This document shows, piece by piece, positions 1,030-5,623 of a stretch of 22,950 nucleotides of DNA. The notes below the pieces were generated by a model that worked only from the letters and a program-made list of their open reading frames with translations, had not been told where the DNA came from and did no database searches. The first letter of the stretch is position 1, and every line of letters begins with the position of its first letter. Origin of the DNA: a virus; the IMG/VR virus record IMGVR_UViG_3300036719_003869, positions 1 through 22,950 of that record. One strand, given 5' to 3'. The position numbers and the translations under genes were made by a program.

Positions 1030-1245
1030 ATGGAATACAAATATCCAGAACAATTGACGAAAGAAGAATTGTCTATAGTACTAAGAAAAGTCTTAGACAA
1101 TCTTAAACAACTACAACAGCTATACACTAAATTTTATTATGAGGAGGAATACGAGAAAGCACTAGAAACCAAAAAGGCAATAGACTTACATTATGTAGCT
1201 CTTAATAAGTTTTTGACCGAACACCAAATGGATGAGGTTCAATAA
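1030..1245 (+). CDS. Small hypothetical protein, 71 aa, helical
   Basis: No family is recognised. The sequence is strongly helical and charged, with KEELSIVLRKVLDNLKQL followed by a Tyr/Glu-rich stretch, consistent with a short helical hairpin or coiled coil. It is the first gene after the promoter-like element at 974-1002. Its stop overlaps the next start (TAATG), so it is co-translated with the following small gene and belongs to the unit leading to the zincin, vWA and AAA+ genes. The ribosome-binding site is weak (GAGA about 7 bases upstream). A regulatory or adaptor role is possible but not shown. Confidence 0.65.
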   Translation: MEYKYPEQLTKEELSIVLRKVLDNLKQLQQLYTKFYYEEEYEKALETKKAIDLHYVALNKFLTEHQMDEVQ

Positions 1246-1466
1246 TGTCTGCTAAAATATATCAATTCCCTAGAAATTCATCGCAACAAATGATACAATG
1301 TAAAAGGATAGCTACTCAAATTGCGAATAAGTATGGGTTTAAAACAAATGATATAGTGTCCGAGATACTTGAACATGCGTATGAAGTATTACCGGATAAC
1401 TTTTCCTACAAAGATTTTGAGGAAGAAGTGATTGCTATTTGTGAAGATTTATCTTTAGTATACTGA
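1245..1466 (+). CDS. Small hypothetical protein, 73 aa
   Basis: No family is recognised. The protein starts with a short extended segment (MSAKIYQFPRN) and continues with helices containing many Glu and Ile residues (IVSEILEHAYEVL). It begins one base inside the preceding stop codon (TAATG) and ends 10 bases before the zincin gene, so it sits within the same operon. No membrane segment, cysteine cluster or catalytic motif is visible. By position it could be an accessory factor for the zincin/vWA/AAA+ group, but this is inference only. Confidence 0.65.
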   Translation: MSAKIYQFPRNSSQQMIQCKRIATQIANKYGFKTNDIVSEILEHAYEVLPDNFSYKDFEEEVIAICEDLSLVY

Positions 1467-1476
1467 GATTTTTAAA

Positions 1477-2409
1477 ATGAAATCAAACAATGCAATACAG
1501 AATTATGAGCTACTGGCAAAACTGTTTGCTAGTGAAAATATCGGCGTTGTTCTTAATCAGAGTTTGACTACCGCAGCCTTTGATATAAAGAACAGAACTT
1601 TATATTTACCATTCTGGGACTTCAAGCAAGAACAATTATATCATTTCGTTATAGGACACGAAGTTGGCCACGCATTGTTTACTCCGTATGATGATATATT
1701 TGTGAGTGAAGAGGGTAAAGAATTAAAACCAATCATCAATATAGTAGAAGACTATCGAATCGATATAAAGATAAAACAAAAATATCCTGGCTTGGTTTCT
1801 GATTATAAAAACGGAATTAAATGGTTGTTGGAAAATGATTTCTTTGGTAACGAAGAAAAAATATCACACTCATTACACAAAATTAATTACAAAACATTTT
1901 TGGATAGATTGGTATTATACCTCAAGGTAAAAGCCAATTATGAATCGTATGGTAGAATAGTCTTTAACACCGAAGAACTTTCATTAGTCAAGAAATGTAT
2001 AACTTGTTATAACTTTGAAAGTGTTGTAACAGTATCGAGAGAAATTCTAGAGTATCTAAAGAGAGAAAAAGAAAAAGATCAAGAAAACGAAGAAGACCAA
2101 GAGAATGAATCTCAAATGCAAAAAGTAGAAGTTTCTGGTACTGAGACTTCTGATGGTGGTCAAAATGAACAAAATGAAACGCAACAACAATCCGAACAGA
2201 TTCAACCACAGAAACCCACGAAGAATGATTCTGGCGAATTCTTTTCTGAAATCCAAAACACCTTTGAACAGAAAATGAATGAAAGTTTACAAGAAGCATT
2301 ATCTAAAAATATCACTTGCATTGAAATTAGTAATTGCGATATCATTAGTAATAGCAAATTATTCACTGCTGATGTACTCCATCGAATTTTATCATATTAT
2401 GAAGGTTGA
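1477..2409 (+). CDS. Zincin-like metallopeptidase with acidic tail (CobT N-terminal-like)
   Basis: This 310-residue protein carries a clear zinc-peptidase motif, GHEVGHALFTP at 60-70, with H61, E62 and H65 as metal ligands and catalytic Glu. N88-IVEDYR follows 25 residues later, and E91 is a good candidate for the third ligand of a gluzincin. After the catalytic part, residues about 196-253 form a low-complexity linker rich in Glu, Gln and Asn, and a short ordered C-terminal segment follows (254-310). There is no signal peptide, so it acts in the cytoplasm. The next two genes encode a vWA protein and an AAA+ ATPase. Bacterial CobT has an N-terminal domain, an acidic linker and a C-terminal vWA domain; here that order is preserved but split at the end of the linker into two genes. 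Whether it cleaves protein is not known. Confidence 0.8.
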   Translation: MKSNNAIQNYELLAKLFASENIGVVLNQSLTTAAFDIKNRTLYLPFWDFKQEQLYHFVIGHEVGHALFTPYDDIFVSEEGKELKPIINIVEDYRIDIKIKQKYPGLVSDYKNGIKWLLENDFFGNEEKISHSLHKINYKTFLDRLVLYLKVKANYESYGRIVFNTEELSLVKKCITCYNFESVVTVSREILEYLKREKEKDQENEEDQENESQMQKVEVSGTETSDGGQNEQNETQQQSEQIQPQKPTKNDSGEFFSEIQNTFEQKMNESLQEALSKNITCIEISNCDIISNSKLFTADVLHRILSYYEG

Positions 2410-2414
2410 TAAAA

Positions 2415-3680
2415 ATGAATTACTATACCAGAGATAATGCATCAAGATATAAATCTGATTATGAAAAAATGGATCGTGCATTAGAAATGATTTCGAGTCA
2501 TATGACGCAATTGTTTCTAAGAAAACAAAAAACCAGAGAATATCACAAAACGCAATTCAAAAAAACTGGTATACTAGACACTCAATCATTATCCAAACAT
2601 AAACTATCGGAAGATATTTTTATTAGAAAACAGATCGATTACAAAGGCGACAGTTACGGTTTTGTCGTATTGTTTGATATGTCTGGTAGTATGGGTTCTG
2701 AATATTTGCCTTGCATACTACAAATTTTATTGTTTGCCAAGTTTTGTAAAAAGGCCGGTTTGCCGTTTGATGTTTATGGGTTTAGTGATTTTAGAGTACA
2801 TAATTATGAGTCTGAACATTATCCATTTAATGCACCTCCGGACAAATGCAGATTATATAATTTTTTATCATCTTCATCATCGAAGCTAGATTTTCAAATG
2901 CAATCTAAAGCATTTTATTATCTCGCTAGAGCTGCCTCCGAGGCGAGCTATGCACACTCATTCGGCTACGGACTCTCTGGTACTCCACTGAATAATTCAA
3001 TGTTTGAATGTTTTAAGGTAGTAGATAATTTTCAACAAAAACACAAAAAGGATATAACTCATTTAATCGTCATAACCGATGGCGATGCAACGGATACAAT
3101 TGAAAGCAGAAACGAATTATTCTCCAGAGACTCACTTGGCGGACAAACATCTTTAAACATAAAGTACAAAAATAAAAGTTACTTTTATGATGTTTTGTCT
3201 AATTATGAAACACTTGTGAAAAATGGATTAATTAGAAATAGAACCGACAATATGATGTACCATCACATCGATTGGAAACCGGCTCAATATCATACTTTAG
3301 TTTCTGCATTAAGAAAACACTTTGGTCAATCATTGAAGTGCCACGAATTCTATATCCACAGTGATAGATTCTCTTCTGATGATATCAAAGTTAAAGTTAA
3401 TAATTTGCCACAATCTTTCAATACTTTTATTTGTCTTAATAAGAGTGTATTTGGATGTTTTGATGTAATACAACGAAGTGATTTTTGGAATGACGTAGAA
3501 TCTTTGGATGATGAAGGACTCGATGATGATTTCGATAAAGATATATATGCCAAAAGACCAAAACAAGTCGAAAATGTAAAAAAAGAAATAAGCAAAATTG
3601 GCAGAGATATGACCAAAAGTTTAGTCAAGACAAAATCTTTAAAAATTATTTCCGAAAAAATTGTTGATCTGTTAGTTTGA
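2415..3680 (+). CDS. von Willebrand factor A domain protein (CobT C-terminal-like)
   Basis: 421 residues. The metal-ion-dependent adhesion site is complete: D88-M-S-G-S-M, T190 in GTPLNNS, and D222 in ITDGDATD. Such vWA proteins work with MoxR/CobS-type AAA+ ATPases, as in CobS-CobT, NorQ-NorD or RavA-ViaA, where the vWA partner presents a target to the ATPase ring. About 85 residues precede the vWA core, and an acidic/basic tail follows (about 350-421, with repeated Asp then Lys). A TTG at 2406 would add three residues, but the ATG at 2415 has AAGG nine bases upstream and is preferred. It follows the zincin gene by five bases and precedes the ATPase gene, so the three products probably form one complex. 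Confidence 0.88.
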   Translation: MNYYTRDNASRYKSDYEKMDRALEMISSHMTQLFLRKQKTREYHKTQFKKTGILDTQSLSKHKLSEDIFIRKQIDYKGDSYGFVVLFDMSGSMGSEYLPCILQILLFAKFCKKAGLPFDVYGFSDFRVHNYESEHYPFNAPPDKCRLYNFLSSSSSKLDFQMQSKAFYYLARAASEASYAHSFGYGLSGTPLNNSMFECFKVVDNFQQKHKKDITHLIVITDGDATDTIESRNELFSRDSLGGQTSLNIKYKNKSYFYDVLSNYETLVKNGLIRNRTDNMMYHHIDWKPAQYHTLVSALRKHFGQSLKCHEFYIHSDRFSSDDIKVKVNNLPQSFNTFICLNKSVFGCFDVIQRSDFWNDVESLDDEGLDDDFDKDIYAKRPKQVENVKKEISKIGRDMTKSLVKTKSLKIISEKIVDLLV

Positions 3681-3731
3681 TTGTGTGATAATTTAATTAT
3701 AGAAAAATTGTTTATCTTGGAGATCATTGTT

Positions 3732-4619
3732 ATGTCAATTGTACCGACCAAAAATAACAACTATGTAAAGTGGGGCCATCATAATCTACTTTCACAGATT
3801 GTCGGTAGTCAAAATTTCTTTCCTGTCTTTATTACTGGTTTGTCCGGTAACGGCAAAACTATGATGGTAGAACAAGTATGCGCCGATCTGAAAAGAAAAT
3901 TGATCAGAATAAACGTAACCATTGAAACGGATGAAGATGATTTGATCGGTGGTTTTAGATTGAAGGATGGTGACACCGTATGGCATTATGGTCCGGTCGT
4001 TGAAGCAATGCGGGAAGGTGCGGTTCTTTTGTTAGACGAGGTTGATTTGGCATCTAACAGAATTATGTGTCTACAACCTGTACTTGAAGGTAATCCTTTG
4101 TACATAAAGAAAATGAATGAGGTCGTAACGCCAGCACCTGGCTTTACCATAATCGCTACCGCCAATACGAAAGGTCAAGGTGATGAAACTGGTAAGTTTA
4201 TCGGTACTAACTTTTTGAATGAAGCATTTCTGGAAAGATTTGCAATCACACTGGAACAAAAATATCCAAGTAAAGCGAATGAGAAAAAGATTCTTACCAA
4301 GATAATGACTAGAGGCGATGAAAAAATTGTCAATACCTTACTCTCGTGGTCTGAATCCATTAGAGATACCTTTGATGATGGTGGTTCAAATGAAGTCGTA
4401 ACCACTCGTCGTTTGGTTCATATATTACAAACCAATAACATTATAGGAAATATTAATGATTCGGTAAAACTATGTTTAAGTCGATTTGATAAGTCTACTC
4501 AAGAAACCTTTTACACACTGTGGGATAAAATGTATAATCTAGAGGAGATAAAAATCTTAGATGGTCAAACCGATATAGAAGAACTGAAAAAAGAAGACAC
4601 CGAAATTGAACTGTTTTAA
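3732..4619 (+). CDS. cobS: CobS/MoxR-type AAA+ ATPase
   Basis: A 295-residue AAA+ protein. Visible elements are Walker A GLSGNGKT (36-43), DLIGGF then a glycine-rich stretch before Walker B LLLDE (D102, E103), sensor 1 N145 in ATANTKGQGD, the arginine finger R169 in LERF, and sensor 2 R226/R227. The segment from ATANT through GDETG to the ERF region matches the CobS pattern, where phage homologues are often labelled cobaltochelatase subunit. No cobalamin gene is nearby, and the neighbours are a vWA protein and a zincin, so a MoxR-like remodelling ATPase is an equal or better reading. The frame can be extended to a TTG at 3681, but ATG 3732 has GGAG with a nine-base gap and removes an unlike leader. 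Confidence 0.88.
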   Translation: MSIVPTKNNNYVKWGHHNLLSQIVGSQNFFPVFITGLSGNGKTMMVEQVCADLKRKLIRINVTIETDEDDLIGGFRLKDGDTVWHYGPVVEAMREGAVLLLDEVDLASNRIMCLQPVLEGNPLYIKKMNEVVTPAPGFTIIATANTKGQGDETGKFIGTNFLNEAFLERFAITLEQKYPSKANEKKILTKIMTRGDEKIVNTLLSWSESIRDTFDDGGSNEVVTTRRLVHILQTNNIIGNINDSVKLCLSRFDKSTQETFYTLWDKMYNLEEIKILDGQTDIEELKKEDTEIELF

Positions 4620-4621
4620 CT

Positions 4622-4720
4622 ATGATGGAACTTTACTTTATACTTGTATTTGCGATTATCATTTTTGTGGTCATTCTAGTGCAAATGATCTTGGATGAAT
4701 TTAATGATGAAATGAAATAA
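4622..4720 (+). CDS. Tiny single-span membrane protein, 32 aa
   Basis: ATG-ATG at 4622 opens a 32-codon frame that ends TAA at 4720. Residues 4-22 are almost entirely hydrophobic (Leu, Ile, Val, Phe), and the C-terminal third is polar and acidic (LDEFNDEMK). This is the pattern of a one-span inner-membrane peptide with a short cytoplasmic or periplasmic tail. It fits exactly into the gap between the AAA+ gene and the protease gene, three bases after the former's stop. No strong ribosome-binding site is seen, so coupling to the upstream stop would be needed. It might anchor a partner or contribute to membrane permeabilisation at lysis; neither is shown. Confidence is moderate because of its size. 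Confidence 0.5.
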   Translation: MMELYFILVFAIIIFVVILVQMILDEFNDEMK

Positions 4721-4734
4721 AACTCTGAGCATAT

Positions 4735-5505
4735 ATGAAAATTAAAACAAAAATTGGACTATTGGCATTATCTTTGTTTGTATGTGTAAAGTCACACGCA
4801 CAAACTACTGAAAGAATTATTAATGGTATAACGGTGAATCGTGCTGTACCATATATGACTGCACTATATCTCGATGGTGAATTCTTTTGTGGCGGGACGC
4901 TCATCAAGCCTGGTTGGGTACTGACGGCTGCACACTGTGCCGAATTGTCAAAATTTTACGACCTATCTTTCTTCAAAGTAGGTGTTGGTGGTAAGAGTCT
5001 TTCTCATCCAAAGGCAAGATCTGGAGTAGAGTCTGTATTTTTTGATAATTGGAGTGGCTTTACATATAAGCGAGACTGGGCACTCTTTAAATTAAAGAGA
5101 AAATTAAAATCAAGATTGTATCCAAAACTGGCAACAAAGAATGTCGTGGGAAACCATAGAGCATTTGGTTGGGGTATTACCGAATCGGGTACAATATCAT
5201 CCCAATTGAAGGAATTGAAGTTTCCAATTTGGCAACAGAGTCAATGCAGTACTGTTTTGGGCGATCAATTTGACGACAAAACAATGATTTGTGGAGCCAA
5301 ATTGTCTTCGTCTAGTGAAGTGCTGGATGGTGGTGATACTTGTAATGGTGACAGTGGCGGACCAATTACCTCATTGAACCGAAGGGTTCTCTATGGTATT
5401 ACATCGTGGGGATTTGAATGTGCAAGTAGTGTTTATCCTGGCGTTTATGCTAGTGTACCCGCCGGTAGAGATTGGATTCTTGAAACTATTAAAAATAATT
5501 CTTGA
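4735..5505 (+). CDS. Secreted trypsin-like serine protease (S1 family)
   Basis: 256 residues. An N-terminal signal peptide (Lys-rich start, hydrophobic 7-18, likely cut after SHA at 22) is followed by a five-residue propeptide ending in Arg27. Then comes IING at 28-31, the trypsin-type activation end. The catalytic triad is complete: H67 in TAAHC, D114 in RDWAL, S207 in GDSGGP. D201 lies six residues before the catalytic Ser (chymotrypsin position 189), and both pocket glycines, in SWG and PGVY, are present, predicting cleavage after Lys or Arg. Cysteines 52/68, 171/186 and 203/229 match three standard disulfides, consistent with an oxidising periplasmic or extracellular site. It is downstream of the tiny membrane gene and just before the hairpin and tRNA. 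Family membership is very secure; the target is unknown. Confidence 0.93.
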   Translation: MKIKTKIGLLALSLFVCVKSHAQTTERIINGITVNRAVPYMTALYLDGEFFCGGTLIKPGWVLTAAHCAELSKFYDLSFFKVGVGGKSLSHPKARSGVESVFFDNWSGFTYKRDWALFKLKRKLKSRLYPKLATKNVVGNHRAFGWGITESGTISSQLKELKFPIWQQSQCSTVLGDQFDDKTMICGAKLSSSSEVLDGGDTCNGDSGGPITSLNRRVLYGITSWGFECASSVYPGVYASVPAGRDWILETIKNNS

Positions 5506-5549: not shown

Positions 5550-5623
5550 GCCCTTATAGTTAAAAGGTATAACAGTTGATTTGTAATCATCAATTCCTAG
5601 TTCGATTCTAGGTGAGGGCTCCA
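5550..5623 (+). tRNA. tRNA-Thr (anticodon TGT)
   Basis: A complete 74-base cloverleaf with encoded CCA. The acceptor stem GCCCTTA pairs with TGAGGGC (one G-T pair). The D arm is GTTA/TAAC. The anticodon arm is GTTGA/TCATC with loop TTTGTAA (anticodon 5582-5584). The variable loop has four bases, and the T arm CCTAG/CTAGG has loop TTCGATT. The anticodon stem has one T-T mismatch. G1-C72 and C2-G71 agree with known threonine identity pairs in Escherichia coli. UGU reads ACA, a frequent codon in this AT-rich genome. Confidence 0.9.

Follow-up and report, generated by a model that had tools for sequence, protein, structure and literature searches.

The window, that is, the whole stretch of 22,950 nucleotides of viral DNA that was analysed, contains three adjacent genes on one strand that encode an HExxH protein, a vWA protein with a MIDAS motif and a CobS-like AAA+ ATPase. 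An earlier note on this DNA had described this arrangement, and all three genes were confirmed, at the following positions and together with small ORFs on either side:

1030–1245, + strand: 71-aa ORF, no Pfam match, best PHROG match at only E 0.042
1245–1466, + strand: 73-aa ORF, only sub-threshold Pfam and PHROG matches
1477–2409, + strand: gene assigned to the zincin half of a phage CobT-like protein, 310 aa (phrog_459 match)
1657–1671, + strand: HEVGH of the zincin gene (sequence)
1747–1749, + strand: Glu of INIVED in the zincin gene (sequence)
2401–2405, + strand: GAAGG, a probable ribosome-binding site for the vWA gene (sequence)
2415–3680, + strand: gene assigned to the vWA half of a phage CobT-like protein, 421 aa, best start ATG 2415 (phrog_459 match)
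2676–2690, + strand: MIDAS DMSGS of the vWA gene (sequence)
3732–4619, + strand: CobS-type AAA+ ATPase, 295 aa, ATG at 3732, stop ending at 4619 (phrog_249, AAA_5)
4622–4720, + strand: 32-aa hydrophobic ORF, doubtful gene (read from the sequence)

Codons were compared with those of one relative (L007, 99/96% identical); the numbers are small. The ratios of synonymous to nonsynonymous changes were 10/2 for the zincin gene, 18/16 for the vWA gene, 25/4 for the CobS gene, 9/2 for the 71-aa ORF and 2/2 for the 73-aa ORF. The 32-aa ORF, with a ratio of 1/8, gave no sign of a conserved protein gene. The two small genes proposed to precede the trio stand as ORFs, while the tiny membrane gene proposed to follow it is doubtful. 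A trypsin codon count in the same comparison was an indel artefact and was discarded.

The zincin matches positions 9–247 of phrog_459 (5e-54) and the vWA protein matches positions 334–640 of the same profile (1.4e-42). This is a phage family annotated as 'peptidase' or CobT-like, the members of which usually form one fused chain, with three of which the vWA protein was aligned. The profile matches indicate that the two genes almost certainly encode the two halves of one CobT-like protein, and that the ATPase, which has the Walker A motif GLSGNGKT and matches positions 106–365 of the 380 positions of phrog_249 (8.8e-104) as well as Pfam AAA_5 (2.4e-23), is the phage CobS. A fusion by frameshifting is unlikely, because the zincin and vWA frames are open together for only about 4 bases. 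Pseudoalteromonas phage XG4 likewise has separate genes for the zincin and the vWA protein; their order is reversed, and they precede clamp- and clamp-loader-like ORFs (assigned from sequence) in a stretch with replication-block matches. Phage cobST, including a split cobT in the haloarchaeal virus HHTV-2, has already been described by Liu et al. (2021, PMC8651126), and one of the HHTV-2 proteins, R4T663 (355 aa), resembles the window zincin in structure (E 1e-4). The window trio is, therefore, a known phage gene pair in split form, and the suggestion that a peptidase takes the place of a cobalamin component does not hold, because the zincin is the N-terminal half of a CobT-like protein published as cobST. 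The published cluster (phrog_459 plus phrog_249; part of the T4-like cyanophage core) comprises the same two families; the window differs in that the split occurs in a marine T4-like phage, the module is gone from the gp46–gp45 site, and CobS has no N-terminal domain. This domain (about 80–100 residues) is present in the 13 aligned relatives, where its model (pLDDT 76) has the winged-helix order H-E-H-H-E-E; the structural matches are weak and mixed, with calmodulin and EF-hand rows beside winged-helix rows, so that a winged-helix character is suggestive only. When the fused family was compared with the sequences of solved structures, only chance matches appeared, the best of them in the acidic linker.

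The window zincin contains both HExxH (HEVGH) and a downstream acidic ligand (INIVED), and this metalloprotease-site region is followed by an acidic low-complexity tail. All 113 phage zincin ORFs that had been fetched without HExxH in the search patterns contain this motif. This is taken as the main count because the other 75 ORFs, all of which also contain HExxH, were fetched with patterns one of which includes HEV[GS]H (a contig that was fetched twice contributes twice to the total of 188). A longer motif pattern failed in five of the 188, and HExxH is present in those five. H61, E62, H65, E91 and D92 are invariant in 29 aligned rows; HExxH has been lost in the CobT of phage nickie. The best-ranked structural matches of an AlphaFold model of the zincin (pLDDT 77) are HExxH-type proteins, and the first 22 in a second comparison are metallopeptidases or zincin-like proteins (Z 4.7–8.0); a Foldseek search with the model yielded nothing from the PDB at E<=0.001. 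Sequence and profiles uphold the earlier view of a MoxR/CobS-type ATPase that has a vWA partner, and of a zincin site that is intact; catalytic activity of the zincin is somewhat favoured.

Several lines of evidence connect the module with replication genes. In 13 annotated T4-like loci it has gp46 on one side and gp45 on the other; in phages of Rhizobium, Pseudomonas, Salmonella and Escherichia it lies a short distance ahead of DnaE, and in ICP2 it precedes primase and polymerase. Of 187 zincin-bearing stretches, 134 contain one or more replication-block genes. The pair in CRP-810 has no annotated replication gene alongside. In the lineage of the window, the trio lies away from replication genes and nearer to baseplate genes: in the 157-kb relative G001 it is found at 127–130 kb, with gp46 at 61–63 kb and gp45 at 59 kb.

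The two families occur in phages in nearly equal numbers. In tblastn searches of 50,697 phage records, the zincin query matched 463 records and the vWA query 462 (both at E 1e-3), and the CobS query matched 509 (1e-10). A second CobT branch, retrieved with CRP-810 as query (1e-3), adds 47 records, yielding 510 CobT-like versus 509 CobS matches, compared by name group and not record by record; the named groups of this branch match those of the CobS set (Vibrio 13, Rhizobium 10, Klebsiella 6, Pseudomonas 6, Escherichia 4). Nine of ten sampled IMG/VR records contain CobS (E<=7e-102), which in two cases is separated from the CobT gene by about 16 and 18 kb. There was no CobS within the fetched stretch at 37 fused and five partial zincin loci; of three such records checked (G190, G191, G192), two have CobS elsewhere, while it is missing from the third, which is a 46-kb fragment. 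A scan of genome contigs revealed 18 loci, most of them in MAG contigs, apparently co-binned phage. One contig, from the assembly of a Nonlabens isolate, contains the gp46-CobT-CobS-gp45 block in full, and its phage would infect Nonlabens; the E. coli phage PhiR41_1 has an HExxH CobT-like gene and CobS.

In the phages searched, the large chelatase subunit does not accompany the module. As the earlier note had found for the window, a search for CobN gave no match in G001, HTVC008M or P-SSM4, and with one CobN query, matches were obtained in two of the 50,697 phage records, both UNVERIFIED and with CobS matches of merely 18–31 bits. None of 23 genomes from the Nonlabens genus gave a CobN match, nor did the E. 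coli control. The module is carried by phages of hosts that lack CobN, namely E. coli and probably Nonlabens. The co-occurrence of the genes across phages supports the earlier note, and in the material examined neither linkage to cobN nor absence of the partners beside cobS in related phages was encountered.

These results bear on the proposal, made by Liu et al. (2021, PMC8651126), that viral CobST hijacks the CobN of the host, raises cobalamin levels and thereby feeds a B12-dependent ribonucleotide reductase. It draws support from the homology of phage and cellular CobS, from the full-length alignment of the CRP-810 CobT with TIGR01651 (178.7 bits), and from cyanobacteria, which have CobN but no cobST according to PMC9227772. 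Two CobN/ChlH-family genes were found in a Prochlorococcus single-cell genome; Pelagibacter, the host of HTVC008M, is not known to have CobN. PMC4303638 suggests that Pelagibacter scavenges nutrients or uses cobalamin-independent routes, and SAR11 is described as having neither MetH nor MetE in PMC12478193. The reductases point in both directions. A class I, B12-independent NrdB is encoded in 15 of 19 records, whereas G194 encodes a class II-like enzyme and G001 one of the class II RTPR type (TIGR02505, 316.6 bits, cut-off 340); matches of 14–16 bits to TIGR02505 in P-SSM4 and S-SZBM1 were taken as cross-hits to class I. As G001 has this class II-type enzyme and gave no match to a class I small subunit, the window lineage may need B12. 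However, apart from the hosts without detectable CobN, the window CobS reaches only 73.8 bits with TIGR01650, far below the equivalog cut-off of 558.55 bits, and HExxH is kept in phages but absent from the eight cellular CobTs directly beside CobS (see below). Taken together, the hijacking of host CobN appears unlikely, and the module is probably not chiefly a cobalt chelatase.

On the profile evidence, cellular cobaltochelatase CobST (PF06213/TIGR01651, TIGR01650) is nevertheless a true relative of phage CobST. It likewise consists of an AAA+ CobS adjoining a protein with an N-terminal domain, an acidic linker and a MIDAS vWA domain; the window has the same order of linker and vWA domain, but in two chains. 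The phage CobS profile matches the CobS proteins beside eight cellular CobTs at 1e-25 to 3e-32, which speaks against the statement of a review (PMC5083919) that the cobS genes of cyanophages and of bacteria are not homologous. PF06213 and TIGR01651 had no match in the window proteins, PF06213 matched one of 13 fused relatives (E 0.071), and a direct profile comparison of phage zincins and cellular CobT N-domains was not significant (0.7%), so that homology rests on a chain through the intermediate A9 (hhalign 99.1%, then 94.2%). The two systems differ in that HExxH is present in none of the eight cellular CobTs directly beside CobS, and in that the window relative has no CobN match. Three further cellular proteins were considered outside this set, namely L224 and L226, which keep HExxH, and L227, which has no HExxH, a PF06213 match below the cut-off and a 45-bit CobS-like neighbour; a CobS-like ATPase lies two genes before L224. 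In 11 gammaproteobacterial genomes with PF06213 matches, five also had PF02514 matches (genome completeness is not given).

Two other groups allow comparison. In the second phage CobT branch, seven of the 47 records were examined (CRP-810, ICP2, PhiR41_1, SSU5, RHph_N1_10, CMS-2020a, nickie); like the window they have HExxH (6/7), a vWA domain, a CobS neighbour and mostly a replication context, but they are fused, lie beside DnaE or primase and are closer to TIGR01651 (two tested). DUF2201 zincin-vWA proteins combine HExxH, seen at 11 of 12 loci, with a vWA-type motif in a single chain, and their loci have no strong CobS-like neighbour in the stretches examined; comparison of profiles revealed no link to the phage zincin N-domain (hhalign 0.2%), with one of 13 fused relatives matching at E 0.021.

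Cellular CobS forms a ring-shaped AAA+ motor, and phage CobS would do the same. The vWA subunit would dock on CobS via its MIDAS and present a client protein, which the zinc-holding zincin half would cut or grip. Less surely, the client would be located on or near replicating phage DNA, e.g., a part of the replisome, a clamp, a bound host protein or a DNA-protein block, and the module would help replication rather than supply a corrin ring with cobalt. Taken as one, the reading as an AAA+/vWA/zincin remodelling or proteolytic machine that probably serves phage DNA replication has about even chances; for a replication-linked client, considered separately, they seem slightly below that.

A more far-reaching version sees phage CobST as an ancient AAA+/vWA/metalloprotease associated with the replisome, which would clear or cut proteins on DNA during replication, and from which the B12 cobaltochelatase motor would have arisen when the protease site was lost. 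Wss1/SPRTN-type proteases with an AAA+ partner offer a comparison. However, CobN-family genes occur in both genomes with an HExxH-keeping CobT-like protein (G094, G112) but in only two (G056, G148) of the eight with an HExxH-less CobT, so that loss of the motif does not track chelatase work in this small cellular sample, which makes such a derivation less likely; it is considered quite improbable, and if it were true, the label 'cobalamin gene' in marine viromes would be wrong. Slightly less probable still is a protease used in counter-defence or host takeover, with a protein of the host or of a defence system as its target for removal, in which case the linkage to replication genes would reflect early expression only: a motor with a vWA protein and a zincin would suit targeted removal, and MoxR-vWA pairs occur in conflict systems according to PMC7159879, but the bpMoxR profile of the ternary conflict systems matches the window ATPase with 16.3 bits only (cut-off 27, E 0.0053), and the occurrence in unrelated phages suggests a more general need. 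The role in virion maturation or assembly raised in the earlier note gained no direct support and is very unlikely, since, despite a gp5-like baseplate gene about 8.6 kb downstream of the trio and a MoxR-vWA pair cited for archaeal virus tail assembly (PMC7159879), the module is part of the replication block in most relatives and G001 encodes its own gp21-type prohead protease.

New in the present study are the retention of HExxH in phage zincins (113/113) as opposed to cellular CobTs beside CobS (0/8), the near-equal numbers of CobS and CobT-like genes, and the presence of CobN in just two phage records, neither with a strong CobS. Among the papers listed in searches of the literature outside subscription journals and preprints, none considers phage CobT to be an active metalloprotease, and none refers to DUF3150. 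There is about one copy of cobS per marine myo-cyanophage genome, and surveys list it as a vitamin B12 synthesis gene, although the same source states that the function of cobS in infected cells is not known (PMC9983427). The partner with a protease site, the replication context in unrelated phages and the hosts without CobN make the question of its role testable, and they caution against inferring B12 metabolism from counts of phage cobS. In addition, they offer a testable origin for the N-terminal domain of CobT.

The window, a virus record from IMG/VR, is 22,950 bases long. The earlier note had described five main ORFs and a tiny sixth one, and this description was borne out. The genes relevant here, including two that follow the trio, are:

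1477-2409, +, zincin (310 aa)
2415-3680, +, vWA protein (421 aa)
3732-4619, +, CobS-type ATPase
4735-5505, +, trypsin-type serine protease (Pfam Trypsin 4.2e-38) directly after the trio, probably with a signal peptide
5550-5623, +, tRNA-Thr(TGT) gene

A search of 50,697 phage records for the protease gave no match at 1e-5.

In a PHROG profile search, the ATPase matched phrog_249, the phage CobS family, and the zincin and the vWA protein matched consecutive parts (positions 9-247 and 334-640 of 736) of a single family, phrog_459, annotated as 'peptidase'. Alignment with three fused homologues showed that the zincin corresponds to their N-terminal and the vWA protein to their C-terminal part, with the split point in the region past the acidic linker; 13 aligned fused phage homologues are 688-784 aa long. 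The zincin frame stops at 2407-2409 and is followed by an ATG at 2415, with GAAGG at 2401-2405. The same split is present in three other contigs (96-100% identity), and codon differences relative to one of these indicate purifying selection on the zincin and CobS, and weaker selection on the vWA protein. Among 192 scanned entries (191 loci and the window), the two parts are fused in 175, separate in eight and partial in nine, the separate entries being the window, Pseudoalteromonas phage XG4 (L012) and three contigs that were each retrieved twice. XG4, whose record is UNVERIFIED, has the genes in the order vWA, zincin, CobS, clamp-like and clamp-loader-like, the last two assigned by sequence and place; because this order differs from that of the window, the XG4 split probably arose separately. 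The XG4 CobS-like gene (L012 8191-9421) is spread over two frames in this record. It should be noted that CobS of both split-type lineages (window 3732-4619; L012 8134-9421) lacks an N-terminal domain present in relatives, which is predicted to be winged-helix-like.

Every one of the 113 zincin ORFs from loci whose retrieval did not involve HExxH carries this motif, as do 75 further ones fetched with patterns, one of which includes HExxH; the downstream motif N-x-x-E-D/N-x-R-I occurs in 183/188 (contigs fetched twice are counted twice). The core of the AlphaFold model of the zincin is mostly confident, and on a second look its best-ranked PDB matches were metallopeptidases or zincin-like proteins, at Z scores (8 or below) that do not prove kinship. 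Foldseek returned no PDB match at E<=0.001; matches among viral models were CobT-annotated phage proteins and HHTV-2 R4T663.

PDB matches of the zincin model (Z score, value in A, residues)
ZMPSTE24, 8.0, 3.7 A, 133
abylysin, 7.5, 3.8 A, 95
selecase, 7.4, 4.2 A, 96
BlaR1, 7.3, 5.0 A, 127
ArdC, 6.4, 4.1 A, 123
BepA, 6.4, 4.0 A, 110
IrrE, 5.8, 3.9 A, 92
Wss1, 4.7, 3.6 A, 81

The three genes appear to travel together. Searches of the 50,697 phage records with the zincin, the vWA protein and CobS (E limits 1e-3, 1e-3 and 1e-10) matched 463, 462 and 509 of them, with nearly identical counts by name group (Synechococcus 365/365/365, Cyanophage 61/61/61, Prochlorococcus 24/24/24, Pelagibacter 3/3/3). 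The CobS records beyond the zincin set have their counterpart in a second CobT-like branch (47 records), the comparison being by name group and not record by record.

The genes for the CobT-like protein and CobS come after gp46 in 14 annotated T4-like loci from phages of Prochlorococcus, Synechococcus and Pelagibacter, and likewise in a Nonlabens assembly contig; gp45 comes next wherever the stretch extends far enough (L022 stops short of it), sometimes with other genes intervening. At least one gene of the gp46-gp45 replication block occurs in 134/187 zincin-bearing stretches scanned, and of the 53 stretches lacking any such gene, 29 carry an RNase H homologue in its place, frequently together with NrdB. 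G001, a relative of 156,877 bases that is 95.8% identical to the window across 20.9 kb, holds most T4-type core genes looked for; it has gp46 and gp45 together at 59-63 kb, where the trio is absent, and the trio at 127-130 kb, with a gp5-like gene roughly 9 kb away. From these counts and this layout, the module is usually part of a DNA-metabolism region and has moved in the lineage of the window. The Nonlabens contig (L121, 188 kb), with its T4-like phage block, belongs to a Nonlabens xiamenensis isolate assembly, which suggests a phage of Nonlabens.

HExxH is absent from all eight cellular CobTs directly beside CobS (L217-L223 and L225; Gammaproteobacteria), and is kept in two low-scoring cellular proteins matching the CobT profile PF06213, L224 (with a CobS-like ATPase two genes upstream in gene order) and L226. 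It is also present in 6/7 CobTs of the second phage branch; that of nickie (L263 3753-5837) has DSEISK at the corresponding place and keeps the vWA motif, so cleavage may be dispensable in some members of the module. In profile comparisons, the phage fused family matched the HExxH intermediates (99.1%, E 4.9e-19), and these matched cellular CobT (94.2%, E 1.1e-7), while direct comparison of phage family and cellular CobT failed. This chain and the distribution of HExxH would most simply mean that the CobT N-domain is a zincin whose site was presumably lost in one cellular branch. Loss of HExxH does not track the presence of CobN in this sample: CobN-family genes occur in both the L224 and L226 genomes, versus 2/8 genomes with HExxH-less CobT (drafts, completeness not given). 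Caulobacter vibrioides, a control genome, has a CobT match (PF06213) and no CobN match (PF02514), and thus CobT in cells may likewise work in the absence of CobN. In two gammaproteobacterial genomes (L242 7536-11600; L243 7902-12617), a DUF3150 gene lies directly upstream of a CobT-like gene that has HExxH; in one genome a CobS/CbbQ-like ATPase comes before it, and in the other a primase-like gene lies downstream. No mention of DUF3150 was found in the open-access articles searched.

That phage CobST is a vitamin B12 system, as proposed in PMC8651126, is in line with the homology of the module to CobST, with CobN/ChlH-family genes in a Prochlorococcus genome, and with a class II ribonucleotide reductase gene of RTPR type in G001 (L025 5316-7241, -; TIGR02505 316.6 bits, just under the cut-off). 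However, this reading is doubtful: of the 50,697 phage records, only two matched CobN, each of them UNVERIFIED and with a weak CobS match (18 and 31 bits); 23 genomes of the genus Nonlabens had no CobN match; nor had the E. coli control, yet the E. coli MG1655 phage PhiR41_1 has a CobS-CobT pair; and class I reductase was found in 15/19 records, including all 13 GenBank ones. Moreover, phages whose replication systems differ have the module close to gp45/gp44, DnaE, primase or DNA polymerase, CRP-810 being an exception with endonuclease V and integrase nearby.

By analogy with MoxR-vWA systems in general, CobS would act as the motor, with the vWA protein as MIDAS adaptor and the zincin as effector, working in that order, and the client would likely be a protein at the replication complex of the phage. 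The trio is a real and known kind of phage module, here split and relocated, and the B12 label usually given to the phage CobS-CobT module is doubtful and open to testing.
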